Source: Spirochaetales bacterium (GTDB taxonomy: Bacteria; Spirochaetota; Spirochaetia; Sphaerochaetales; Sphaerochaetaceae). From it: DNA of 57,595 nt. The first letter of the stretch is position 1. Every line of letters starts with the position of its first letter. The notes under the pieces were generated by a model, which was not told where the DNA came from, did not search any database, and saw nothing but the letters and a program-made list of their open reading frames with translations. Of this stretch, positions 8,731-23,724 are shown one piece after another. The stretch spans positions 1-57,595 of the forward strand of contig JAAYIV010000001.1 in the NCBI GenBank assembly GCA_012523305.1. The letters are read 5' to 3'. A program made the translations under genes and the position numbers.

Positions 8731-10404
8731 CTATTGTTCGGGAGAATCCTCGATCATGTCATCGATCGAAGCTCCGGGGGCTACCATCGGAAAGACTTTG
8801 TTGTCCACCGGTATTTCGCAATCAACAAGTACCGGAGCATGAAGTGAGATCGCAGCGTTCAATACCATGGCAGGATCATCATCTATTCCAAGATGCATAC
8901 CGTTTATCCCGTAGGCTTGGGCGAGCTTGATCCAATCAACCGAGGTATCGAGCGTCGTTTCCGAATAACGGTGTTCATAAAAGAATGTCTGCCACTGACG
9001 GACCATGCCGAGAGTATGGTTGTTCATCAATAGAATTATAATCGGAAGATTGTAACGAGCGATGGTCGCCAATTCATTACAGTTCATCCTGAAACTTCCA
9101 TCTCCGGCTACATTCACAACCCTTTTATCCAGATTGCCAACTTGTGCACCGATGGCAGCTCCGGTACCATACCCCATCGTCCCCAATCCTCCTGAAGATA
9201 AAAATCTTCCCTTCGGATTGTGACAATAGAATTGGGCCGTCCACATCTGATGTTGCCCGACTTCGGTTACTATGATCGCATTTTCAGGCAGGAGTTGGTT
9301 CAAAGCGCGAAGGACTTGCTTTGAGCGTCTGTTCTCAACGGAGACTTTTATCGGATACTCTTGTTTCCACAATGCGATCTGCTCCATCCAAGAAGTATGG
9401 ACGATTGGGGAACGCTCGAGCATGGTATTCAATTCGCCCAGCACTTCCTTGATATCTCCGATGACATGATGTAGTGTCGGCATATTCTTATTGATCTCCG
9501 CGGGATCCACGTCAATCTGGACAATCTTTGCTTTTTTAGCGAACGCACTGGCTTTGCTCACAACGCGATCACTGAACCGGGCCCCGATGACGAGTAACAG
9601 GTCACAGCGATTTACCGCGATATTGGAAACCCTGGTCCCGTGCATTCCTATCATGCCTGTAAAACGTACATGATCGCAGGCTACCGCTCCTGTTCCCATG
9701 AACGACACTCCCATCGGGCTATCGATCAATTCGATGAACTTCGCAAGCTCACCTTGAGCATTCGCCCTGATCACACCGCCACCCACATAGAGCATCGGTC
9801 TTACTGATTCCCTGAGCATCTTGATTGTTTTTTCCAAAGCATTCTGCATCGGTCTCAAACGAATAATCGGGTCGGTGTCCGCCTTCTCATAATCACAGAT
9901 TGCAGCGCTCACATCCTTGGGAACATCGATGAGCACCGGCCCCGGCCTTCCCGATCTGGCTATCCTGAAGGCTTCTCTGATCGTAGGAGCCAATTCTCGC
10001 ACATCCTTCACGATATAATTATGTTTGGTGATCGGCATGGTGATACCTGTTATATCGACCTCCTGGAAACTATCCTTACCCAACAATGCCGTAGTCACAT
10101 TGCCGGTAAATGCGACAATCGGGATCGAATCCATGTAGGCTGTTGCCAGTCCGGTCACAAGATTGGTAGCACCCGGACCGCTGGTGGCAATGCAGACGCC
10201 CACCTTTCCAGTAGAACGGGCATATCCGTCCGCAGCGTGCGAGGCCCCTTGCTCATGTGAGGTAAGTATGTGACGAATGGATGACCGGTACTTGTACAAC
10301 GCATCATAGATATTGAGTACGGCTCCTCCGGGAAATCCGAATACCGTATCAACTTGCTGCTCAATCAAACATTCAATTAATATTTCTGATCCATTCAACT
10401 TCAT
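8731..10404 (-). CDS. ilvB: Acetolactate synthase, large (catalytic) subunit
   Basis: A ThDP-dependent enzyme that condenses two pyruvates to 2-acetolactate (valine and leucine branch) or pyruvate and 2-oxobutyrate to acetohydroxybutyrate (isoleucine branch). The 557-residue length fits. Visible are the N-terminal FGFPGGAVLNIYDALY, the catalytic Glu in SHEQGASHAADGYAR, and the ThDP motif GDGSFRMNCNELATIARYN followed by the NN pair. ATG 10404 is preferred over the in-frame GTG two codons earlier because AGGTGACT sits just before it. This is the last gene of the ilv-leu operon, 15 nt after ilvD, so its small subunit ilvN lies at the opposite end, about 10 kb upstream in the same transcript. Confidence 0.95.
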   Translation of the reverse strand: MKLNGSEILIECLIEQQVDTVFGFPGGAVLNIYDALYKYRSSIRHILTSHEQGASHAADGYARSTGKVGVCIATSGPGATNLVTGLATAYMDSIPIVAFTGNVTTALLGKDSFQEVDITGITMPITKHNYIVKDVRELAPTIREAFRIARSGRPGPVLIDVPKDVSAAICDYEKADTDPIIRLRPMQNALEKTIKMLRESVRPMLYVGGGVIRANAQGELAKFIELIDSPMGVSFMGTGAVACDHVRFTGMIGMHGTRVSNIAVNRCDLLLVIGARFSDRVVSKASAFAKKAKIVQIDVDPAEINKNMPTLHHVIGDIKEVLGELNTMLERSPIVHTSWMEQIALWKQEYPIKVSVENRRSKQVLRALNQLLPENAIIVTEVGQHQMWTAQFYCHNPKGRFLSSGGLGTMGYGTGAAIGAQVGNLDKRVVNVAGDGSFRMNCNELATIARYNLPIIILLMNNHTLGMVRQWQTFFYEHRYSETTLDTSVDWIKLAQAYGINGMHLGIDDDPAMVLNAAISLHAPVLVDCEIPVDNKVFPMVAPGASIDDMIEDSPEQ

Positions 10405-10419
10405 AGTCACCTCATGTAT

Positions 10420-12081
10420 TTAGTCAGCGAACACAGCTCCGCGTACCGCACTCGTAACCTGTTTGGCATAACGGGCCAAATATCCCTTCGTTATCTTCGG
10501 TTGCGGTGCTTTCCAAGCAATCCTTCGTTTCTCCAATTCTTTCTCATCCACAAGCAACGAGAGATTCCCTTTCTCAATATCGATCTCGATCATATCGCCT
10601 TCTTCTACCAACGCGATCGGACCCCCGACGGCTGCTTCCGGCGAAACGTGTCCGATTGAAGCACCTCTGGTTGCCCCGCTGAAACGGCCATCCGTGATCA
10701 AGGCAACCGATCTATCAAGGTTCATCCCGGCGATCGCAGACGTCGGGCCTAGCATCTCGCGCATTCCAGGCCCTCCTTTAGGGCCTTCGTAACGAATGAC
10801 AATGACATCACCGGAAGTAATCGTACCCTTGAGAATGGCATCGCTCACTTCTTCTTCCGAGTTAAACACTCTGGCCGGTCCTTTATGATGGAGCATCGAT
10901 GGATCCACGGCAGAGCGTTTTACCACCGCGCCTTCCGGTGCGAGATTTCCGCTCAGCACAGCGATTCCTCCGGTCACGCTGTAGGGATTGTTCGCAGGTC
11001 TGATTACGTCATGATCTTTGTTACGCGACTTGGCAATCTGATCTCCGATGGTGGTACAAGAGACTGTCTTCGCACTGTTGTCGATCAAACCAAGACTACT
11101 TAATTCCGTCATGACGGCCATCACACCGCCCGCTCTGTCCAGATCCTCGATATGATGGTGACCCGCAGGAGCCAAGTGGCACAAATTCGGAGTCCTGCTA
11201 CTGATTTCATTGGCGATGAAGATATCGAGATCGACATGGGCTTCATGGGCTATCGCAGGGAGATGCAACATACTGTTCGTACTGCATCCCAGTGCCATGT
11301 CGACTGCCAGAGCGTTGTTGAAAGCTTGTCTGGTCATGATATCCAAAGGCTTCACATCGTGTTTGAGCACTTCCATCACCGCATACCCGGCTTCTTTTGC
11401 CAATCGGTCACGCTCGGCATACACGGCTGGAATCGTTCCGTTTCCAGGAAGTGCCATGCCCAAGGCTTCGGTCAAACAGTTCATGCTGTTGGCAGTGAAC
11501 ATGCCCGAGCAGGAACCGCACGTCGGACAGGCAGAGTTCTCGAATGCAAGGAGCTCTTCGTCCCCGATCATCTTCGCCGCATGACTGCCAACCGCTTCGA
11601 ACATCGTCGACAGACTGATAGCTTTCCCGTCCTTCTTACCCGCAAGCATCGGTCCGCCAGAGACAAACACCGTAGGGATGTTAATCCGTGCCGCGGCCAT
11701 GAGCATCGCAGGTACGATTTTGTCACAATTCGGTACCATGACCAACGCGTCAAACGGGTGAGCCAACGCCATCGATTCGATGGAATCAGCGATCAACTCA
11801 CGGCTTGCCAATGAATATTTCATGCCGACATGGCCCATGGCAATACCGTCACAGACTCCGATAACCGAAAATTCGATCGGAGTTCCCCCCGCGGTTCTGA
11901 TTCCGGCTTTCACCGCATCAACAATTCGGTTCAAATGGACATGACCGGGAATGATCGAGTTGGCTGAATTCACCACACCGATCAACGGAGCGTTGATCTC
12001 GCGATCGGTAAGGCCCAAAGCTTTCAATAATGATCTATGGGGAGCACGGACGGCTCCTTTCTTCATCGCATCGCTTCTCAT
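10420..12081 (-). CDS. ilvD: Dihydroxy-acid dehydratase
   Basis: Dehydrates dihydroxyisovalerate and dihydroxymethylvalerate to the 2-keto acids of valine/leucine and isoleucine. The 553-residue protein has the iron-sulfur ligands expected of the family ([14 protein letters not shown] near residues 116-129 and [16 protein letters not shown] near 190-205) and the [17 protein letters not shown] segment. It starts with an ATGA overlap with the stop of ilvE, so it is translationally coupled. Oxygen sensitivity of the cluster would suit an anaerobe. Confidence 0.95.
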
Positions 12082-12962
12082 ATCTTTGCTCCGTTTTCAG
12101 GTTTTTTCGTATACTCCCTGAATGCTTGTAACAGCTTCATCGTCACTGATCCTGCAACCCCGCCGGCTATCTTTCTTCCGTCCAATTCTGTCAGGGCTAT
12201 GATTTCAGCTGCGGTTCCGGTGAGGAACGCTTCATCCGCATTTAGTAAATTGTAATGGGTAAACGGTTCCTCTTTCACGACATATCCAAGTTCTCGGGCA
12301 ATTTTTATCACTGATTGGCGTGTTATTCCGTCCAGTGTGCCAAGCCATACCGGAGGAGTTAAGATTTCATCGTCTTTCACCATGAAGACATTATCTCCGG
12401 TACACTCGGTCACTATTCCATCATCGTTGAGCATCAAAGCTTCATCGGCACCATAGCGATGGGCTTCGATCGAAGCCAGGATGCTATTCAGATAATTCAG
12501 GCTCTTGATCTGCGGATCGATAATCGTGGCCTTGTTCCTTCTGTAACTGCTCGTGATGACGTTCAGGCCACGCCTATAAGCTTCTTCAGGGTATAGGGCG
12601 ACCTGACCGGCAATACAGAACAAACGGGGCTTATGTGCTTCTGGTTTTGGATACAATCCCAATCCGTCAGCACCACGGGTACACACCAATCGGACATAAC
12701 CATCAGAAATATTGTTTTTCCTGCAGGAATCCAGCACGACTTCAGTCATTCCCTTTTTGTCGAAGGGAAGTTGGAGAAACAATGCATTAGCTCCGGCAAA
12801 AAACCGGTCGATGTGATCTTTGAGTTTGAATACTTGGCCATGATAAGCACGAATCCCTTCAAATACGCCGTCTCCATATAAAACCGCATGGTCGAATACC
12901 GAAATCTTTGCTTGCTCAACCGGTACGAATTGTCCATCCAAATATACTAATTGTCCGCTCAT
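12078..12962 (-). CDS. ilvE: Branched-chain amino acid aminotransferase
   Basis: A fold-type IV PLP enzyme of 294 residues that makes Val, Leu and Ile from their keto acids. The N-terminus VSVFD-like block ([19 protein letters not shown], residues 18-36) and the region with the PLP lysine ([18 protein letters not shown], near 150-167) are typical, as is [26 protein letters not shown] precedes the ATG. It overlaps ilvD by four bases and follows leuB by 21 bases. D-amino-acid transaminases share the fold, but the operon settles the role. Confidence 0.93.
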
Positions 12963-12983
12963 ACTTCTCTCCTTTTAACCATC

Positions 12984-14048
12984 TCAGATGGCCTGAGCAA
13001 TCAATGATCCCATTTCTTTTGTTCCAACCGGATGCATCTGTGAACTCATTATGTCCAGTGTCCTATAACCATCGTCAAGCACTTTACTTATTGCAGTCTC
13101 GATAACGGCAGCTTCTTCTTCCAAATTAAAGCTGTGACGAAGCATCATGGCAACCGAAAGAATTGTTGCGATGGGATTCGCTTTGTCCTGCCCCGCTATA
13201 TCGGGAGCGGATCCGTGAATCGGTTCGTACATGCCGAAGGAGTCTTCACGAAGGCTTGCCGACGGCAACATGCCGATGCTTCCGGTGATCATGCTTGCCT
13301 CGTCGCTGAGGATATCTCCAAACATATTGGTAGTTACGATCACATCAAATTGCTTGGGATTTCTGACCAATTGCATCGCTGCGTTATCAACATACATATG
13401 GCTGACGGTAACTAGCGGATACTCCGTTGCCACACGGTTGACTACCGAACGCCACAACCTGCTCGATTCAAGGATATTTGCCTTGTCAACACTCATCAGT
13501 TTCTTCTTACGTTTCATTGCTAATTCAAAGGCTTTCCGTGCAATTCTTTCAACTTCCAGCTCTGAATAAGCCATCGTATCATACGCACGAGTTCCATTTT
13601 CATTTCTTCCGCGATCACCGAAATAGATTCCGCCGGTGAGCTCTCGGACCACCATCAAATCAAGGCCGCCTTCGATGATGTGATCTTTTAACGGACAGGC
13701 TTCTGAAAGCTGCCGATAGAGGATCGCAGGTCGTAAATTACAGAATAATTTCAACCCTCCACGCAACCCGAGCAATGCTTTTTCAGGACGCATATCGCCT
13801 TTCAGGTCATCCCACTTCGGACCGCCAACGGAACCTAACAAGACAGCCTGGGCATCGGCACATCCGAGCAGGGTAGATTCTGGCAACGGTTCGCCAACCG
13901 AATCGATAGCCACTCCTCCGGCGAGGTAAAACGAGAAATCAAGCGTATGGTTAAACTTTTTGGCGACTTCACCGAGTACTTTGATTCCTTCGGCCACGAT
14001 ATCGGGGCCGATCCCGTCACCGGGAATAACCGCAATCTTCAATTTCAT
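12984..14048 (-). CDS. leuB: 3-isopropylmalate dehydrogenase (also probable beta-methylmalate dehydrogenase)
   Basis: NAD-dependent oxidative decarboxylase that converts 3-isopropylmalate to 2-ketoisocaproate. With citramalate synthase in the same operon it probably also turns erythro-3-methylmalate into 2-oxobutyrate. The 354 residues begin [16 protein letters not shown]; the frame stays open 29 codons further upstream, but AAGGAG before ATG 14048 and the ATGA overlap with leuD fix this start. [31 protein letters not shown] and [14 protein letters not shown] are family signatures. Confidence 0.95.
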
Positions 14049-14539
14049 TTCGCCATCTCCTTCTTCAGATACTGTACCAACCCTTCTGCTTCGATCATTT
14101 TTTGGATAAACGGAGGAAATGCTTCTGCTTTCCAACTTTCGTTTGTCGTGAGATTGCTGATCAATCCGCTAGTAAAATCGACCTCTACCGTATCGCCATC
14201 CCTGATTCCCTTTACAGCTTCGGGACATTCGAGAATGGGTAGTCCGATATTGATTGAATTACGATAGAAAATTCGGGCAAAGGATGAAGCGATAACACAA
14301 CTGATCTTTGCTGTTTTTATCGCCAGCGGGGCATGTTCACGAGAAGAACCGCAACCGAAATTCTTATCGGCCACAATGATGTCCCCCGCTTTGACCCTCT
14401 TGATGAACGTCGGGTCGATATCTTCCATGCAGTGCGAAGCCAATTCGGCGGCGTCGGAGGTGTTGAGATACCGTGCCGGGATGATCACATCCGTATCCAC
14501 ATTATCTTTATAGCGAAAAACTGTTCCGTGTGCTTTCAT
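14045..14539 (-). CDS. leuD: 3-isopropylmalate dehydratase, small subunit
   Basis: The 164-residue swivel subunit of isopropylmalate isomerase, of the short type found in archaea and many anaerobes. Seen: [17 protein letters not shown] near residues 10-26, and [18 protein letters not shown] near 58-75, the substrate-recognition loop. Together with LeuC it isomerises 2- to 3-isopropylmalate and probably citramalate to methylmalate. It begins one base after the leuC stop and overlaps leuB by four bases. Confidence 0.93.
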
Positions 14540-14540
14540 C

Positions 14541-15809
14541 TTAATTGACTCCTATCTCTTCGGGATTGGCTATCCTGCCGGTCAAGGCCGAAGCGGCGGC
14601 CACTGCCGGGCTTGCCAGATACACTTCACTTTGAACATGTCCCATTCGACCTACAAAATTCCTATTGGTGGTCGCGACAGCCCGTTCTCCCTCAGCCAAA
14701 ATTCCCATATGTCCGCCAAGGCATGGGCCGCATGTCGGTGTGCTCACCACCGCCCCTGCTTCAACAAAAATTCTTAACAATCCCTCTTCCATGGCCTGCA
14801 GATAGATTTGTTGGGTGGCAGGGAATATGATGGTCCTCACTCCTTTGGCAACCTTACGGCCTTTCAACAGTTGAGCTGCCACCCTAAGATCGCTTATCCG
14901 GCCATTGGTACAAGAACCGATCACCACTTGGTCAATCGGCACGTTTCCAACCTCATCGATAGTTTTTGCATTTTCCGGTAGGTGGGGGAACGCAACTGTC
15001 GGTCTGATAGCTCCAAGATCGATATCGACAGTCCTCTCATACTCGGCATCGCTGTCAGCTTCATACACCTTGGGGAGCCGCTTGCAATGTGAAGCCACAT
15101 ACTCCAGGGCAACCGCGTCGACCGGGAATATTCCATTTTTCGCACCGGCTTCAATAGCCATGTTGCACACGGTGAACCTGTCATCCATCGTGGTGGAGGC
15201 CACTCCTGTGCCACAGAATTCAATTGACTTGTACAGGGCACCGTCGACACCGATCATGCCGATGATGTGAAGCACCAGGTCCTTTCCCGATACCCATCGG
15301 GTAAATGTACCTGTCAGATTAAAGCGAATAGCTTGTGGGATTTTGAACCATAGCTTGCCCGTTGCCATCGCGGCTGCCATATCTGTGCTGCCGACACCGG
15401 TTGAAAACGCTCCCAGGGCTCCGTACGTGCAGGTATGACTATCGGCACCGATAATCAGGTCCCCTGCGTTCACCAAGCCCTGTTCCGGAAGCAATGCATG
15501 TTCGATTCCCATCTGACCCACTTCAAAATAGTGTTCGATATCAAAATCATGGGCGAACTGTCGCATGCACTTGCATTGCTGGGCAGCTTTGATATCCTTA
15601 TTGGGTGTAAAGTGATCCGGGACCAACGCGACTTTGCTTTTGTCGAACACCTTATCGAGATTGAATTTCGCGAATTCTTTTATCGCTACCGGGGATGTGA
15701 TGTCATTGCCCAACACTAGATCGACATCGGCCATCACCAATTGCCCAGGATGGACTTGTGGCAATCCAGCATGTTCTGCCAGGATTTTCTGTGTCATTGT
15801 CATGCTCAT
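14541..15809 (-). CDS. leuC: 3-isopropylmalate dehydratase, large subunit
   Basis: The 422-residue catalytic subunit, carrying the aconitase-type [4Fe-4S] cluster. Cluster cysteines are seen in [16 protein letters not shown] near residue 301 and [13 protein letters not shown] near 359-371. [20 protein letters not shown] near 117-136 is also typical. It is the shorter, archaeal-type LeuC that works with the short LeuD following it. The start overlaps the end of cimA by four bases, with GGAG 7 nt upstream. A homoaconitase or dimethylmalate dehydratase would look similar, but the operon supports leucine/citramalate use. Confidence 0.93.
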
Positions 15810-17440
15810 GCATTTGCTCCTTGATGTGAATCGACGGGAGCAGCCACTCCCTCTTTCATTAATTTGTATTCAATCGAATCAACCAATGCCATCCAACTGG
15901 CATCGATGATATCGGCAGATACCCCGACTGTCGACCAGTTCGTGCTGCCATCGGTTGTTTCTATGAGAACCCGTACTTGAGCTGCGGTCGCGCTACGGGA
16001 ATCAAGCACACGGACCTTGTAATCCGTGAGGTGCATTCCATTCAAGGACGGATAGAATCCTTCCAGGACTTTACGCAGGGCCTTATCAAGGGCGTGTACG
16101 GGACCGTCGCCTTGGGCTACCGCTATCGCTGATTGTCCGTCCACATGTACTTTCACCACCGCAGTATGACTTGTTTCAGGTCCGCCTATCAATGGTCTTT
16201 CGCCCAAGGTCTTGTAGTGATCGAGGGTGAAATAGGGGTGGTACGTTCCCAAGTGTTTGCAAATGATCAATTCAAACGAACTTTCAGCTCCTTCGAATTG
16301 ATATCCGGCCATCTCCATCCGTTTCAAGGTATTGATGATCGCTTTTGTCCTTTCATCGTCCTTACCGATCGACGGCGCATATTTCTGGATTCGATTCAGC
16401 ACCATCGCCCTGCCGGCGACTTCACTCATCAAAAGCCTTCGTTCATTGCCAACGAGTTCGGGATCGATATGTTCGAAGGAAAGCGGATTTTTTGCAATTC
16501 CGTCGATGTGCATCCCGCCTTTATGAGTAAAAGCGCTGATACCGACATACGGCATACCGTCAGAGATACCGATATTGGCGATTTCGGCGACCGATCGAGT
16601 GATCAATGTGAGTTTTGTCAATGATCCTGGCAATAATACTTCATAGCCCATCTTAATACTCAGCGTGGGAATCAAGGTCGCCAGATTGGCATTTCCGCAC
16701 CGTTCGCCAAACCCGACGAGCGTTCCCTGGACTTGTCTCGCACCCGATTCCACGGCCATCAAAGAATTGGCTTCCGCACATGAAGAATCGTTATGAGTGT
16801 GGATTCCGATAGCAATCTTTGAATATGTACGCTTCAATGTGTCTACGACCAGATGTGTGATTTCCTTGACGTATGTCGGCAGCGATCCTCCTCTCGTATC
16901 ACATAACACCAACGTTTTTGCTCCGGCATCGGCGGCCGCTTCCAAAGTCTTCATCGCATAATCGGGATTACTTTTATAACCGTCAAAGAAGTGCTCTGCA
17001 TCGAATAGCACTGTTTTCCCTTTTGCAACCAGATATGCTATGGTCTCGCGTATCATAGCGATATTTTCCGCTAATGTCGTTCGTAGAATATCGGTGACTT
17101 GGAAATCCCAACTTTTGCCAAAGATCGAGATCGTATCGGTTCCGGCTGATAGCAGTTGGGCTATACCCGTATCGTTCGCAGCGTTGCTCGACGGTCTGCG
17201 AGTTGAGCCGAAAGCAACCAGCTCGATGTGGTTAAGGTGCAAATTCGCAGCTTCTTTGAAGAACTCAAGATCTTTAGGGTTTGATCCCGGATTACCGGCT
17301 TCGGCATAATCCACCCCGAGTTCATCCAAGAGTTGCACAATCTTCAATTTATCCAAAACGGAGAATGAGATTCCTTCTGCCTGTGCGCCATCACGTAAAG
17401 TGGAATCAAAAATCTCGATCCTCTTTTTGTTATTCTCCAT
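15806..17440 (-). CDS. cimA: (R)-citramalate synthase
   Basis: Condenses acetyl-CoA with pyruvate to citramalate, the first step of the threonine-independent isoleucine route. The 544-residue protein has a DRE-TIM aldolase domain beginning [20 protein letters not shown], the metal-binding [16 protein letters not shown] region, and a C-terminal LeuA_dimer regulatory domain ([16 protein letters not shown] and after). DGAQAEG in place of the DGEQAPG seen in the neighbouring leuA marks the citramalate synthase branch. It starts two bases after the leuA stop. No threonine deaminase gene is in the operon, which agrees with this route. Confidence 0.92.
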
Positions 17441-17442
17441 AT

Positions 17443-19095
17443 CTAGAGCTCCTTGGTTACATCTTCCTTGACAGTTCCACTGACTTTCATGTCACGTGAG
17501 AGTGCTTCTTGAGAAAGAGTCACCCATGATTTGGCTTTTGCTCCGGCACTGAGAAATCCTTCCTGGTTTGGGAGTGAAAGATTCTGTTCCGATGCTTCAA
17601 TCATTCTGTTGACCGCCGCCAACAACCCGAGCATGCTTGCTTCGATGACGTCGGTACTTACCCCTCTGCCCCGGAAAACTCCGTTTTCATCCGATATCTT
17701 CACCAACACCTCGCCCAAAGCATCACGGTGCTCGGTAACAGCTCTCAATTGATAATCTTCAAGAACGTACGGATGCTTGATGATTCGTTCGACAGCCTTG
17801 AAACATGCATACACCGGGCCGGTAGCCATCTCAACCGCCTGCATCCGTTTATCGTCACGCTTGAGCGTGACGCAAGCCGTTGCAGTCATGTTGTTACCGC
17901 TGTTGACGACAAAATTCACTAGTTCGTAAATCTTCGGGGCGGCTTGTGTCCCGCTTTCCATCATTGCAATGAGATCGCGATCGGTTATCTCTTTTTTCTT
18001 GTCGGCAACACTCTTGAAATCACTGAACAGCTTAGATGCCATCTCGGTTGTAAGTTGATATCCGAGTTCTTCCATCCGTCGGACAAACGCATGCTGACCC
18101 GAATGCTTTCCCAACACCATGGTCGTCTTTTTCAACCCGATCGATTCGGGAGTCATGATTTCGTACGTCTTGGAATTGGCCATCATCCCGTGTTGATGGA
18201 TACCTGATTCATGGGCAAATGCATTTGCTCCGACTATAGCTTTGTTCGGGGCAACGGCGACGCCTGTTATCGACGAGAGCAACCTGCTTGTCGGGTAAAG
18301 TTCTTCAGTTTTCAAGTCATAAGAGAAATCGTACAGATCGGGACGGGTCCTGATGGCCATCACGACTTCTTCGACCGCTGCGTTTCCTGCACGTTCTCCG
18401 ATACCGCCGATGGTACATTCAGCTTGTCTGGCACCTGAACGCAAACCGGCCAACGTATTGGCGACAGCGAGACCGAGATCGTTATGGCAATGAACTGAGA
18501 GTATTGCCTTGTCAATATTCACGACATTGTTCATGATCTTGGCAATCAAGGCACCGAATTCCTCAGGCATGCCATAGCCCACGGTATCGGGAATATTGAT
18601 AATCGAGGCTCCCGATTCGATTGCTGTTTCGATGACATCATATAAAAAATCGATATCGCTGCGAGAAGCATCTTCAGCTGAAAACTCGACTTCAGGACAG
18701 AGATCTCGCGCATAACGCACCATCGATGCAACCTGATCGAGTGCTTGCTGGCGACTCATCTTCAACTTGTACTCAAGATGCAGGTCACTGGTCGCGATGA
18801 ATGTATGGATCCTCGGTCGCTGTGCCTGTTTCACCGCTTCCCACGCACAATCGATATCTTTTTTCAGCGCCCTAGACAGGGAGGCCACCGTACAATGCCG
18901 CATCGTTTTGGCAATTGCTTCAACCGAAGCAAAATCGCCGGGCGAGGCAATGGCGAAGCCAGCTTCAATCACATCCACGTTCAATAGTTCGAGCTGTCGG
19001 GCCATTCGAAGTTTTTCTTCCAGGTTCATACTGTATCCCGGAGCTTGTTCGCCGTCCCTCAATGTCGTATCGAAAATCGTAATGTGTTCTGCCAT
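17443..19095 (-). CDS. leuA: 2-isopropylmalate synthase
   Basis: Condenses acetyl-CoA with 2-ketoisovalerate, the committed step to leucine. The 550 residues comprise a catalytic TIM barrel (FDTTLRDGEQAPGYSMNLEE, residues 8-27; LSVHCHNDLGLAVANTLAG, near 201-219) and a C-terminal allosteric LeuA_dimer domain where leucine normally binds. Length and motifs are typical of the main bacterial LeuA. GAGAGGTGAGACA precedes the ATG. It lies 32 bases after ilvC. Confidence 0.95.
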   Translation of the reverse strand: MAEHITIFDTTLRDGEQAPGYSMNLEEKLRMARQLELLNVDVIEAGFAIASPGDFASVEAIAKTMRHCTVASLSRALKKDIDCAWEAVKQAQRPRIHTFIATSDLHLEYKLKMSRQQALDQVASMVRYARDLCPEVEFSAEDASRSDIDFLYDVIETAIESGASIINIPDTVGYGMPEEFGALIAKIMNNVVNIDKAILSVHCHNDLGLAVANTLAGLRSGARQAECTIGGIGERAGNAAVEEVVMAIRTRPDLYDFSYDLKTEELYPTSRLLSSITGVAVAPNKAIVGANAFAHESGIHQHGMMANSKTYEIMTPESIGLKKTTMVLGKHSGQHAFVRRMEELGYQLTTEMASKLFSDFKSVADKKKEITDRDLIAMMESGTQAAPKIYELVNFVVNSGNNMTATACVTLKRDDKRMQAVEMATGPVYACFKAVERIIKHPYVLEDYQLRAVTEHRDALGEVLVKISDENGVFRGRGVSTDVIEASMLGLLAAVNRMIEASEQNLSLPNQEGFLSAGAKAKSWVTLSQEALSRDMKVSGTVKEDVTKEL

Positions 19096-19127
19096 TGTCT
19101 CACCTCTCTTGTTTCGGGAATTACCCG

Positions 19128-20120
19128 TTATTTTTTCAACCAGCTCATCAATGCACGCAATTTCTTACCGGTTGTTTCGAGCAGGCTTTCTGATTCGATT
19201 CTTCGTCTTGCGTTGAAGAACGGTCGCTTCACTTGGTTTTCCAACAACCAATTCCTAGCGAACGTACCGTCCTGGATTTCACCAAGAATCTTTTTCATCT
19301 CGTTTCGTGTGGCATCGTTTATGATTCGTTTGCCACTGACATAGTCACCGTATTCCGCAGTATCGCTGATCGAGTAACGCATATAGGAAAGCCCGCCTTG
19401 ATTAATCAAATCAACGATGAGCTTCATTTCATGGCAGCACTCGAAATAGGCCATCTCAGGTTGGTATCCCGCTTCGACCAATGTATCGAATCCGGCTTTG
19501 ATAAGGGCACTGACTCCACCGCAGAGCACCGCCTGCTCACCGAAGAGGTCTGTTTCGGTCTCTTCTTTGAATGTTGTTTCGAAAATACCGGCTTTCCCGG
19601 CACCCAAACCCGCGGCATAAGCCAACGCGACTTGCGTAGAATCTCCAGAAGGATCCTGGTGCACCGCTATCAGTGAAGGAACGCCTTTTCCTTCTTGGAA
19701 TTGCGACCGTACGGTGTGCCCGGGACCTTTGGGGGCGATCATGATCACGTTCACATCCTTCGGCGGGGTGATTTGCCCGAAATGAATGTTGAAACCATGG
19801 GCGAAGGCCAAGTATTTGCCCTTTGTCATTCCTGCTTCGATGCTCTCGCTGTATAATCGTGATTGTTTCTCATCATTAACCAACAGCATCACCACATCTC
19901 CGGCTTTCGCAGCTTCCGCGGCCGTCATCACCCTGAGTCCGGCTTCCTCTGCCTTTTCCCATGAAGGACTACCTTTATAGAGCCCCACGATCACGTTTAC
20001 GCCCGATTCATGGAGATTGAGCGCATGGGCATGTCCTTGGCTCCCGTATCCGATAATCGCAACGGTCTTTGTCTCCAATACACTCATGTCTGCATCTTGT
20101 TCGTAATACATCTTGCTCAT
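19128..20120 (-). CDS. ilvC: Ketol-acid reductoisomerase, class I
   Basis: Isomerises and reduces acetolactate and acetohydroxybutyrate to the dihydroxy acids. The 330-residue length is that of class I enzymes. The Rossmann motif [17 protein letters not shown] is at residues 25-41 and the C-terminal knotted domain begins near 185. The cofactor-specificity loop reads [13 protein letters not shown]: the residue that is usually Arg in NADPH-dependent class I enzymes is Tyr, while the serines are kept. The effect on NADPH versus NADH use is uncertain. AAGGAG precedes the ATG, 55 bases after ilvN. Confidence 0.95.
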
Positions 20121-20175
20121 TCGAAAACTCCTTAATTATTCACCCTTCGGTCTCTATAGATCGTGGATGGTAATG

Positions 20176-20694
20176 TCAATATTCGCTGTCATCCGGGCTT
20201 GCATCGCCTTTGGCTTGACTGTCTCTTCCCATTGCCGTTATTCCGGTTCGTACCAATTCACATATCCCATAGGGTCGGGAAAGCCTGAGAAACGAATTGA
20301 TCTTGTCCAGGTTTCCCGTCAATTGCAACGAAATGGTCGCTTCCGACACATCTACAATTTTTGCTTTGAATATCTCGGACAATTGGATGACAGCGGCCCT
20401 GTTTCCATTTTCCGTACTGAGTTTCACAAGGATCAATTCAGCTTGGATGCTGCCTTGATGCGAAAGTTCGACTACGTTGATAACATCAATCAGTTTCGCC
20501 ACTTGCTTCTCAATCTGTTCCACGATTTGCCGATCCCCTGTTACGACTATGGTAATCCGAGAAATCGTTGGAATCTCCGTTTCTCCGACAGAAAGACTGT
20601 CGATGTTGTATCCCCTGCGGCTGAACAGGCCGACTACCCTGGAAAGAACCCCGGGGTGGTTGTTTACTAATATTCCTAATGTATAGCGTTCCAT
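20176..20694 (-). CDS. ilvN: Acetolactate synthase, small (regulatory) subunit
   Basis: A 172-residue regulatory subunit with an N-terminal ACT domain (YTLGILVNNHPGVLSRVVGL, residues 4-23, with RRGYNIDSL) that binds valine for feedback inhibition of IlvB, and a C-terminal activation domain. The frame is open ten codons further upstream, but ATG 20694 is chosen because AAAAGGAG lies 7 nt before it and the protein then begins MERYTLG as in homologues. It is the first structural gene of the operon. The GGAG of its ribosome-binding site can be closed in a 5-bp hairpin (see separate entry). Confidence 0.93.
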   Translation of the reverse strand: MERYTLGILVNNHPGVLSRVVGLFSRRGYNIDSLSVGETEIPTISRITIVVTGDRQIVEQIEKQVAKLIDVINVVELSHQGSIQAELILVKLSTENGNRAAVIQLSEIFKAKIVDVSEATISLQLTGNLDKINSFLRLSRPYGICELVRTGITAMGRDSQAKGDASPDDSEY

Positions 20695-20699
20695 TGTCT

Positions 20700-20714
20700 G
20701 ACTCCTTTTGGAGT
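20700..20714 (-). promoter_or_regulatory. Hairpin over the ilvN ribosome-binding site
   Basis: On the minus strand ACTCC (20714-20710) and GGAGT (20705-20701) pair across an AAAA loop, burying the GGAG used by ilvN. Two further copies of the same half-sites lie upstream (GACTCC at 20758-20753, GGGAGTC at 20737-20731) and can pair with each other or with this site, so translation as well as transcription may be controlled. Confidence 0.4.
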
Positions 20715-20740: not shown

Positions 20741-20823
20741 AAAAAAGTGTCAGGAGTCCCTATACGGTTATGCCAACACCACCGTGGAGAAGTCTTCCAC
20801 GGTTACGTAACGGCTTGCCGTGG
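20741..20823 (-). promoter_or_regulatory. Attenuator of the ilv-leu operon
   Basis: Just after the leader peptide stop the RNA has mutually exclusive stems. Segment 1 CCACGG (20823-20818) pairs with segment 2 CCGTGG (20802-20797). Segment 2 CCGTGGA (20802-20796) can instead pair with segment 3 TCCACGG (20788-20782). ACGGT inside segment 3 (20785-20781) can pair with ACCGT (20768-20764), which would trap the 5' arm of the terminator in its loop. The terminator stem is GTGTTGG (20779-20773) with CTGACAC (20753-20747), followed by six Us (20746-20741). The stop codon is placed so that a ribosome there would cover segment 1. Confidence 0.6.
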
Positions 20824-20829
20824 AGAGAG

Positions 20830-21000
20830 TTATAGAATAATTAGGGTTACAATAATAATGGAGATAATAAGGAGGGGTAGTACAGATACTATAGGAAGGG
20901 ATGAGCAAATAATAGCGGATAAAGATCGGGGTCTTGTCTGTCCTGACGGGTTACACTGAAGTCCCATCGTTGATTGACGCCTATTGTGCGTACTTCTCAT
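20830..21000 (-). CDS. Leader peptide of the ilv-leu operon, rich in Ile/Leu/Val
   Basis: A 56-residue frame between the promoter and the attenuator. From residue 27 to the end 20 of 30 residues are Ile (10), Leu (7) or Val (3), ending IIIVTLIIL and stop. This composition is the hallmark of leader peptides that sense charged branched-chain tRNAs by ribosome stalling. The first ATG (21000) has AGAGG 8 nt upstream and is the likely start; an in-frame ATG at 20967 would give 45 residues but lacks a ribosome-binding site. The N-terminal half (MRSTHNRRQSTM...) is basic and has no such bias. It is short enough to be missed by standard gene calling. Confidence 0.75.
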   Translation of the reverse strand: MRSTHNRRQSTMGLQCNPSGQTRPRSLSAIICSSLPIVSVLPLLIISIIIVTLIIL

Positions 21001-21031
21001 AATATGTACCTCTCACATGAAGATTGCTTCT

Positions 21032-21060
21032 GTTGTAACCATGATACGGGAAAATGTCAA
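21032..21060 (-). promoter_or_regulatory. Promoter of the ilv-leu operon
   Basis: On the minus strand a consensus TTGACA (21060-21055), 17-nt spacer and TACAAC (21037-21032). Transcription would begin near 21025, about 25 nt before the leader peptide ATG and 330 nt before ilvN. Confidence 0.6.
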
Positions 21061-21190
21061 TCATTTGATTCAATTTTCATGCACATATAACAACATATTT
21101 TGTATTAATATACACTTTTCATACATCTTTATCATATTTGTAGTAAATTCACCAACCTTCGGCTACACTATTCACGCGAGGGTTTTGAGA
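21061..21190. other. AT-rich divergent control region between ilv leader and histidine kinase
   Basis: No gene is seen. The histidine kinase frame is open through here, but the codons before the TTG at 21191 are AT-rich, run across the opposing ilv promoter and leader, and are not kinase-like. The kinase promoter must lie here; I see no consensus -35/-10 pair. Confidence 0.5.
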
Positions 21191-22963
21191 TTGGTTACAG
21201 CGCATGACAATCATAAAAGAAGTGTTCTGTATGGGTCCCTATTTTATCGGCTCATCTCGTACTTTCTCATTGTGATGATTATCCCCCTAGTGGTGTTGAG
21301 TGTATATTACGTTGCTGCCGGAAACAATGCGATCACCAAAAACTTATCCGATCAAAATGAAATGGCTACAGTCAGGATTGCTGACCAGGTCAAATCGATC
21401 ATCGAATCATATCGTCATAAAACATATGTGCTCAGTACGAACAATACGATCATCAGTGAATTGGATGCAGATGCTCCGGAAACCAGCTCGTCCCGTTCAA
21501 AAGAAATATATGAGCAGTTGTTCACGATCATGCGCGGCGATACTTACTTGGCAAGTGCTACGATAGTGAGCAGTTCGGGCCAGGCACGTTACTCTACCCA
21601 CCTGTTTCCCTCCCGTTACGATATCAGGTACAACCGCAACGATTGGAATCCGTTTTTCACCCTTTCGAGGACTGCCGGAGAAAACGCATCGGTCATCACC
21701 ATTGAAAACCGATATGCGACACAAACCAATGCGTTCGTGTTCATGAGCATCTATCGCAAAGTGCGTAACACGGCCGGAGAGGAAGTCGGTTATGTCGCGG
21801 TCGACATATTCCAAGAAGCGCTTTCGTCTCTAAATAATTGGTTCAGATTCAACGAAATCATTCTTATCGACACCGATAATTTTCTTGCTTCATCGCTATT
21901 GACCACAGATCGCTTCGGAGATTTTTCCAATTTCCCCGAATTACGTTCGATACAGGCTCCATTCACGCGTAAAACCATTACCGACAGCTCCATGATCATT
22001 TCAACAGTTTCAATTCCCGGTACTTCTTTCATAGTAGCCGGTGTCACCGATACCACGGTGCATCGTCAAGGAATCACTCATTTCTTCTTTATTATCATCA
22101 TGGTCGCTTTGTTGGGTTTATTGGTCGCCAGCGTGCTAGCGTTTTTCTTTACCCGATCGATAGCCAAGCCTGTCAACCGGCTTACATCCTCGATGAGAAA
22201 AGTCGAAGCAGGAGATTTGGCAGTGAGGGTTCACGAATCAAAGATTGTTGAATTCGCACAATTGGACAGCACGTTCAATGCCATGGTCAGCCAAATTGCT
22301 GAATTGCTCAACCTCACTCGAGAGGAGGAAGAGAAAGTCAGGGAAGCAGAACGGAAAGCCCTTCATGCTCAGATGAATCCTCATTTCCTGTACAATACGC
22401 TCAATACCGTGAAGGCGATAGCCAAACTTCATGGCGAACAAGAAATCCTTATGATAGTTACCAAACTTGGCAGGCTGCTCCGTGAGAGCATCGAAAACCG
22501 GGAAACAGAGCAACCGCTCAGCCAAAGCATCGCCTTGGTCGAGAATTATCTTGCCATCCAAAAAATTCGCTTCGGGGAAAAACTGGTCACATCGATCGAG
22601 GTTGATCCGAGACTCAACGATCTCATGTTGCCTAAGCTTGTCATCCAACCGCTGGTTGAAAATGCTCTGATCCATGGATTGGAACCCAAGACCGGAACAT
22701 GGCGTCTGGCAATCAGATGCTCTGTGGTGGACTCTTGGGCGGTCATTACGATCAGTGACAATGGAATAGGCATACCGAAAGGCATGTTACCCGAAAATCT
22801 TGAAGAACTCGCCAATTCGGAACATATCGGACTCTATAATATCTATCGAAGGATGCAATTGCGTTTCAACACTTCTTTTTCGTTCAGGATCGATTCGATT
22901 GAAGGGGAAGGAACTGAAATTTCTATCGCTGTTCGAAGAGACAGAGAGGAGAACGTCGGATGA
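21191..22963 (+). CDS. Sensor histidine kinase, YesM type
   Basis: An inner-membrane kinase of 590 residues: TM1 near 21-41, an extracellular dCache-like region to about 295, TM2 near 297-320, HAMP (RSIAKPVNRLTSSMRKVEAG), then the His_kinase domain with phosphorylated His in HAQMNPHFLYNTLN (His about 398) and a HATPase_c domain with QPLVENALIHGL and ITISDNGIGIPKG. YesM kinases usually sense sugars or their binding proteins. A TTG start at 21191 is chosen because GAGGG lies 8 nt before it and the protein then begins just ahead of TM1; an upstream in-frame ATG (21017) would add 58 non-conserved residues. Overlaps its response regulator by four bases. Confidence 0.85.
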   Translation: MVTAHDNHKRSVLYGSLFYRLISYFLIVMIIPLVVLSVYYVAAGNNAITKNLSDQNEMATVRIADQVKSIIESYRHKTYVLSTNNTIISELDADAPETSSSRSKEIYEQLFTIMRGDTYLASATIVSSSGQARYSTHLFPSRYDIRYNRNDWNPFFTLSRTAGENASVITIENRYATQTNAFVFMSIYRKVRNTAGEEVGYVAVDIFQEALSSLNNWFRFNEIILIDTDNFLASSLLTTDRFGDFSNFPELRSIQAPFTRKTITDSSMIISTVSIPGTSFIVAGVTDTTVHRQGITHFFFIIIMVALLGLLVASVLAFFFTRSIAKPVNRLTSSMRKVEAGDLAVRVHESKIVEFAQLDSTFNAMVSQIAELLNLTREEEEKVREAERKALHAQMNPHFLYNTLNTVKAIAKLHGEQEILMIVTKLGRLLRESIENRETEQPLSQSIALVENYLAIQKIRFGEKLVTSIEVDPRLNDLMLPKLVIQPLVENALIHGLEPKTGTWRLAIRCSVVDSWAVITISDNGIGIPKGMLPENLEELANSEHIGLYNIYRRMQLRFNTSFSFRIDSIEGEGTEISIAVRRDREENVG

Positions 22964-23724
22964 GTTATTCGGTAGTGCTCGTGGAAGACGAAGAGCTGAC
23001 CCTCCAAGAGCTGGAAACCACAACGGATTGGCAAAAGTTTGACATGCACGTTATCGGAACAGCTACCAACGGAATGGACGGCGAGCAACTCATCAAAGCG
23101 CTCGAACCCGATATCGTCATTACCGATATCAGACTTCCCGGACAGGATGGACTGGAGATGCTTTCACACTGCCCGGTGAATTACGCTATCATTTTGAGCG
23201 GACACAGTGATTTCAGCTACATGCAGAAAGCAATCCGTCTTTCGGTGTTTGATTTCTTACTAAAGCCCGTCGCTGACGAAGATCTTGAACACACACTAGC
23301 CAATCTCTCGGAAAGAATACAAGAAGAAGACGACGAGATGGACCGGATGAAGAAGCAAACCGACACTTCGGGATGCATAACGCTACCGGTAAAAGTCAGC
23401 AACAGGATCGTTGATGCCGCAATCCAGTTTATCAACAACCACTATCATCATTCGATAGGGTTGCAAGAGACATGTGATCATCTGAGCGTATCTGAAAGTC
23501 ACCTCTGTCGGTTATTCAAAGAATGCACGGGGATTAATTTTCTCTATTACCTCAATGCATACCGAATCAACAAAGCCATAGAGATGATGAAGGATCACTC
23601 GATCACCATCCAGCAAATTTCAGCGGGCAACGGTTTCCCGAGCTCCGGTTACTTTGCTAAAATCTTCAAAAAGTACACGGGAGTCCTCCCCAGCCAATAC
23701 CGTGATCAAAATAGTATGCTCTGA
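22960..23724 (+). CDS. AraC-type response regulator
   Basis: The partner of the YesM kinase. The 254 residues comprise a receiver domain with the phosphoacceptor Asp in PDIVITDIRLPGQDGLEML near residue 52, and a C-terminal AraC helix-turn-helix pair (LQETCDHLSVSESHLCRLFK near 168-187; IQQISAGNGFPSSGYFAKIF near 218-237). The linker is short, giving a protein about half the size of many regulators of this class. The likely target is a sugar-uptake operon, possibly the ABC transporter at 26-29 kb, but no site was identified. Confidence 0.88.
   Translation: MSYSVVLVEDEELTLQELETTTDWQKFDMHVIGTATNGMDGEQLIKALEPDIVITDIRLPGQDGLEMLSHCPVNYAIILSGHSDFSYMQKAIRLSVFDFLLKPVADEDLEHTLANLSERIQEEDDEMDRMKKQTDTSGCITLPVKVSNRIVDAAIQFINNHYHHSIGLQETCDHLSVSESHLCRLFKECTGINFLYYLNAYRINKAIEMMKDHSITIQQISAGNGFPSSGYFAKIFKKYTGVLPSQYRDQNSML

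Follow-up and report, generated by a model that had tools for sequence, protein, structure and literature searches.

The ten-gene ilv-leu operon of a Sphaerochaetaceae draft genome, to which Sphaerochaeta sp. UBA6084 and related Spirochaetae MAGs come closest among named relatives, is most probably controlled as a whole by a ribosome-mediated attenuator of the ilvGMEDA type, as judged from its sequence and from the conservation of its parts. In E. coli, ilvGMEDA is a branched-chain operon with one leader peptide that mixes Ile, Leu and Val codons, followed by alternative stems. The likeness is that here too a mixed Ile/Leu/Val leader would control a branched-chain operon through alternative stems: a translatable leader ORF rich in codons for the operon's end products precedes ilvN, and it is followed by mutually exclusive stems, the choice between which would be set by the position of the ribosome. 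The window analyzed, 57,595 nucleotides of contig JAAYIV010000001.1, contains the complete operon, which an earlier note had described as a ten-gene ilv-leu operon, and its ten genes are confirmed by NCBIfam. The gene order ilvN-ilvC-leuA-cimA-leuC-leuD is common to the relatives. Coordinates of the features are collected in the table.

Features of the ilv-leu leader region and operon, with positions in the window
Feature	Position	Strand	Basis or remark
-35 element TTGACA	21055..21060	-	sequence; kept in relatives with spacing of 17–18 nt
-10 element TACAAC	21032..21037	-	TACAAC/TACAAA in relatives
Leader Shine-Dalgarno AGAGG	21009..21013	-	sequence; GAGGT(G)/GAGG at same position in relatives
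Leader peptide ORF, 56 codons + stop, 3′ half Ile/Leu/Val-rich	20830..21000	-	counterpart in 97/98 upstream regions
Segment 1 core CCACGG	20818..20823	-	nearly invariant
Segment 1 as P1 5′ strand (ACGG 20821-20818, GCCG 20814-20811)	20811..20821	-	folds; RNAalifold consensus
Segment 2 ACCGUGGA, 5′ strand of P2 and partner for segment 1	20796..20803	-	folds, RNAalifold consensus, pairing counts
Segment 3 UCCACGGU, 3′ strand of P2	20781..20788	-	folds, RNAalifold consensus
P1 distal strand (GUG 20779-20777, UGGC 20775-20772, CCGU 20767-20764)	20764..20779	-	folds; helix pairing
Weak terminator-like hairpin (20780-20773 with 20753-20746) and U6 (20746-20741), doubtful	20741..20780	-	-9.6 kcal/mol
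9-bp hairpin GACUCCUGA/UCGGGAGUC, U6 in loop	20731..20758	-	-13.6 kcal/mol
ilvN Shine-Dalgarno AAGGAG, inside small local hairpin ACUCC-aaaa-GGAGU	20702..20707	-	
Operon ilvN-ilvC-leuA-cimA-leuC-leuD-leuB-ilvE-ilvD-ilvB	8731..20694	-	NCBIfam

The leader is preceded by the consensus-like promoter that had been claimed for it, with -35 and -10 hexamers separated by 17 nt (21060-21032, minus strand) and conserved in the relatives, and by a Shine-Dalgarno sequence 8 nt 5′ of the ATG at 21000 (minus strand); the stop codon is at 20832-20830. The frame has the proposed length of 56 codons, and 20 of its last 30 codons are indeed for Ile, Leu or Val, with codons for all three continuing up to the stop. 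Of the 1,075 stretches of 30 codons that precede a stop in any of the window's six frames, none has a higher count, and the runner-up has 15. Upstream of the promoter (21061-21115, minus strand), and at the same place in relatives, is an AT-rich motif, TGCATAAA-N-AT..., which is often repeated (TGCATAAACATAC...TATGAATA) and is present in 27 of 35 distinct regions. It resembles ArgR boxes, an ArgR homologue (L143) is encoded in the genome, and the motif possibly represents a second, protein-based control. The ilv promoter is also adjoined by divergent frames (20984-23724, plus strand), whose translations resemble those of a sensor histidine kinase and of an AraC-type response regulator.

The earlier note had made its proposal depend on conservation of the leader codons and stems in related genomes, and both are kept. 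An ilvN gene is present in 94 of the 139 family genomes surveyed, and we compared 98 upstream regions, nearly all from Sphaerochaetaceae, with a few near-duplicates and one locus from another family. An Ile/Leu/Val-rich leader lies 5′ of ilvN in 97 of these (it is missing in L097 only), ending approximately 77–146 nt before the aligned ilvN start, and such a leader was also found in both genomes examined from a second family of the class. The last 15 leader codons contain a median of 10.5 Ile, Leu or Val codons, compared to 3 in shuffled sequence. These observations argue strongly for the sensing of all three amino acids by a single leader, as had been proposed. Leader length ranges from about 17 to more than 80 codons and the sequence is free except for its Ile/Leu/Val richness, yet every leader neighbors ilvN and the CCACGG/CCGUGG segments. 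Conceivably the frame could give rise to a hydrophobic microprotein with a function of its own rather than act as a sensor, since it is both conserved and hydrophobic, although its freedom of sequence and length and its constant position beside ilvN and the paired segments make this highly improbable. Because the leader is conserved across almost the whole family and is followed by stems that a ribosome could mask, it is very probably an ordinary amino-acid sensor. With a covariance model a single convincing copy per genome is recovered, in few genera, and no further copies of the switch in the genome under study.

None of 200 shuffled versions folds as well as the 141 nt that follow the leader (z -3.35), and the stems begin 7 nt after the leader stop with CCACGG (20823-20818), as the note had placed them. 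Segment 1 (CCACGG) and segment 2 (CCGUGG) directly follow the leader stop in nearly every sequence, and the exact pair is present in 79 of 95; what comes after them falls into three architectures. First, in the two sister genera g12 and g16 (architecture A) segment 3 is CCACGGG, CCCGGGC or similar and is followed by a U-tract, forming in all 52 distinct leaders a terminator at least as stable as -8 kcal/mol, with segment 2 as its 5′ arm in 51 of the 52. The alignment of orthologous leaders that had been suggested for covariation supports the 2:3 helix in these two genera, with a score equalled by 1 of 500 shuffles, although segments 1 and 2 are too uniform for covariation to say anything on the 1:2 helix. 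Since segment 1 starts at the stop codon, a ribosome positioned there must block 1:2 pairing and let the 2:3 terminator form, and from its sequence architecture A is a compact, textbook three-segment attenuator. Secondly, in genera g3 and g18 (architecture B) a separate C-rich/G-rich hairpin comes after the 1:2 pair, and only some of the sequences have a recognizable U-tract. In these genera (e.g. L008, L075 and L081) a conserved GCUUAUACCC follows the CCCC/GGGG hairpin between the leader and ilvN, and the U-tract, which a few species have retained (L086, L092 and L135), is gone from most.

Thirdly, the window and genera g4, g6, g17 and g21 (architecture C) share one long hairpin, in which an outer helix, P1, pairs segment 1 with a distal strand and an inner helix, P2, pairs segments 2 and 3. 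RNAalifold recovers P1 and P2 unguided; 92% of their cells are paired compared to 29–50% in slid versions, and the covariation score is equalled by 19 of 500 shuffles. The alternation of 1:2 and 2:3 pairing in the earlier note is strongly supported by conservation, with 1:2 pairing possible in 100% of cells, but segment 1 pairs more stably, and in a conserved way, with the distal strand at 20779-20764, the P1 helix being paired in 89% of cells. Segment 1 thus has two partners, and the footprint of a ribosome at the stop codon includes or adjoins it. Intrinsic terminators are not conserved in this clade, most members of which are without any U-run hairpin, and, the 1:2 pair set aside, the window is the only one of nine distinct architecture C sequences with a hairpin of at least -8 kcal/mol ahead of a U-run.

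The switch envisaged in the earlier note used this hairpin, with its U6 at 20746-20741, as the off state, and as the on state 1:2 pairing together with segment 3 pairing to 20768-20764. Both hairpins can be drawn, and when 1:2 is imposed the leftover RNA does pair as ACGGU:ACCGU. The U6 itself is present, but the hairpin preceding it is weak (-9.6 kcal/mol), is matched by 23% of shuffles that keep the U6, and is absent in relatives; once transcribed, the 9-bp hairpin GACUCCUGA/UCGGGAGUC competes with it. The proposed antiterminator is a metastable fold about 5–8 (5.6–7.7) kcal/mol less stable than P1 plus P2. Folding the 5′ UTR with stalled-ribosome constraints, as the note had advised, gives the terminator hairpin (in RNA ending at the U6) a probability of 0.001 with the ribosome stalled at least five codons upstream, and of 0.04–0.17 with it at the stop or one codon before; in these models the effect of the ribosome on the terminator has the right direction, yet the off state is weak. 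When the model places the ribosome at the leader stop, P1 still has a probability of 0.90. Five extra nucleotides, CUCUC (20829-20825), absent from relatives, lie between the stop and segment 1; they pair with AGGGA (20761-20757) and shift segment 1 partly outside the modelled ribosome footprint, and it is because of this spacing that P1 mostly stays formed. The 1:2 on state could matter kinetically, as 1:2 is transcribed first, a point that equilibrium folding cannot decide. As an exact description of the window the earlier switch is unlikely, while its general logic, in which a ribosome at the stop masks segment 1 and a stalled one frees it, is borne out in the sister genera with clean terminators.

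We propose that when charged tRNAs are plentiful the ribosome would reach the leader stop and mask segment 1, such that segment 2 pairs with segment 3 and expression falls, and that a shortage of Ile-, Leu- or Val-tRNA would stall the ribosome upstream and leave segment 1 free. In the sister genera a free segment 1 would keep segment 2 from the terminator, a 1:2 antiterminator opposing a 2:3 terminator. In the window's clade it would instead close the long P1 plus P2 hairpin and sequester the distal strand, so that the operon stays on; candidate routes to the off state in the window are the weak U6 terminator, Rho, or translation. A more speculative reading, to which we give clearly less than even weight, is that one family has kept the same leader peptide and rebuilt its read-out, with a terminator in some genera and a terminator-free, ribosome-gated long hairpin (acting, for example, on translation) in the window's clade.

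A narrower possibility, of rather lower probability, is that the leader in this clade acts on ilvN translation, or through long-range pairing near its ribosome-binding site, and not on transcription termination. The general lack of U-run hairpins in the clade favors this, and in most members a stretch about 25 nt 5′ of ilvN is complementary to the loop that precedes segment 2, cognate pairs being slightly better than permuted ones (p 0.04), a weak value given that nine or ten sequences and several pairings were tried. The 2:3 loop likewise pairs better with the Shine-Dalgarno region in cognate pairs (p 0.037). However, the pyrimidine-rich loop strand is explained by an extended P2 stem, and modelled accessibility of the Shine-Dalgarno sequence shifts inconsistently between states. 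An anti-Shine-Dalgarno role of the 2:3 loop was rejected, the statistics being weak and the extended P2 stem the better explanation, as were an accessibility that follows ribosome position, for the same inconsistency, and a match between the distal strand and downstream RNA, which is not better than with permuted partners (p 0.23). Rho-dependent termination, tuned by leader translation and occurring within the C-rich, G-poor leader or beyond it, is improbable. Rho is encoded in the genome, and the 3′ half of the leader is 29–34% C and 8% G in the two genus groups from which terminators are mostly absent, but composition is nearly equal in genera with clean intrinsic terminators, and a stalled ribosome would bare more RNA, which is the wrong logic. 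The ribosome-mediated attenuator is the reading we prefer.

The leucine codons of the leader were also compared with those of the operon. The window's leader uses CUA, CUU, CUC and UUA and never UUG or CUG; CUA accounts for 3 of its 8 Leu codons compared to 4% in the operon, and UUG, with 36% in the operon, is not used. Ile is mostly AUU and Val mostly GUA. The theory of Elf and Ehrenberg, derived for E. coli, holds that CUA gives a sensitive Leu attenuator and that UUG or UUA would not (PMC1183508), and the leader's Leu codons appear to fit the pattern expected for sensitive attenuators. However, third-position G is also rare in the Ser, Pro, Thr and Ala codons of the leaders, which suggests that some of the bias may help the leader to stay free of structure, and we do not take it as proof of tRNA sensing, since it may in part be a general avoidance of G.

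The principle is a familiar one, and ilvGMEDA is counted among the known attenuators (PMC1183508). Relative to ilvGMEDA, the sister genera have a three-segment switch immediately behind the leader stop, the window's clade has one long hairpin without a conserved terminator, the host is a spirochaete, and the leucine genes are within the same operon. The Corynebacterium ilvB-II motif similarly combines an Ile/Leu/Val-rich uORF before a branched-chain operon with alternative stems, terminator versus antiterminator, but its uORF is 15–17 codons long and inside that motif's P1, and the first gene is another (PMC10272879); at the level of detail compared, no sequence relation to the spirochaete leader was seen. 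The only spirochaete precedent found in the literature searched is the Leptospira ilvB motif WRC-14-1 (PMC8632094), reinterpreted as having a uORF rich in branched-chain amino acids (PMC10272879). It shares with the present leader the spirochaete host and a uORF of this kind and differs, by its description, in having seven representatives, a location before ilvB, and runs of Val (PMC8632094, PMC10272879). The window gave no Rfam match at the gathering score or with E up to 5 (leader elements, T-box, ppGpp and other riboswitches), and we found no description of this leader for Sphaerochaeta in the open literature searched. The leader thus appears to represent a principle known from ilvGMEDA and Corynebacterium ilvB-II, newly recognized in Sphaerochaetaceae. 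It adds a conserved attenuator of this family that is missing from Rfam and, in the literature searched, undescribed, and it provides a natural series of different read-outs to which one sensor appears to be coupled, such that the evolution of an attenuator can be followed and tested.
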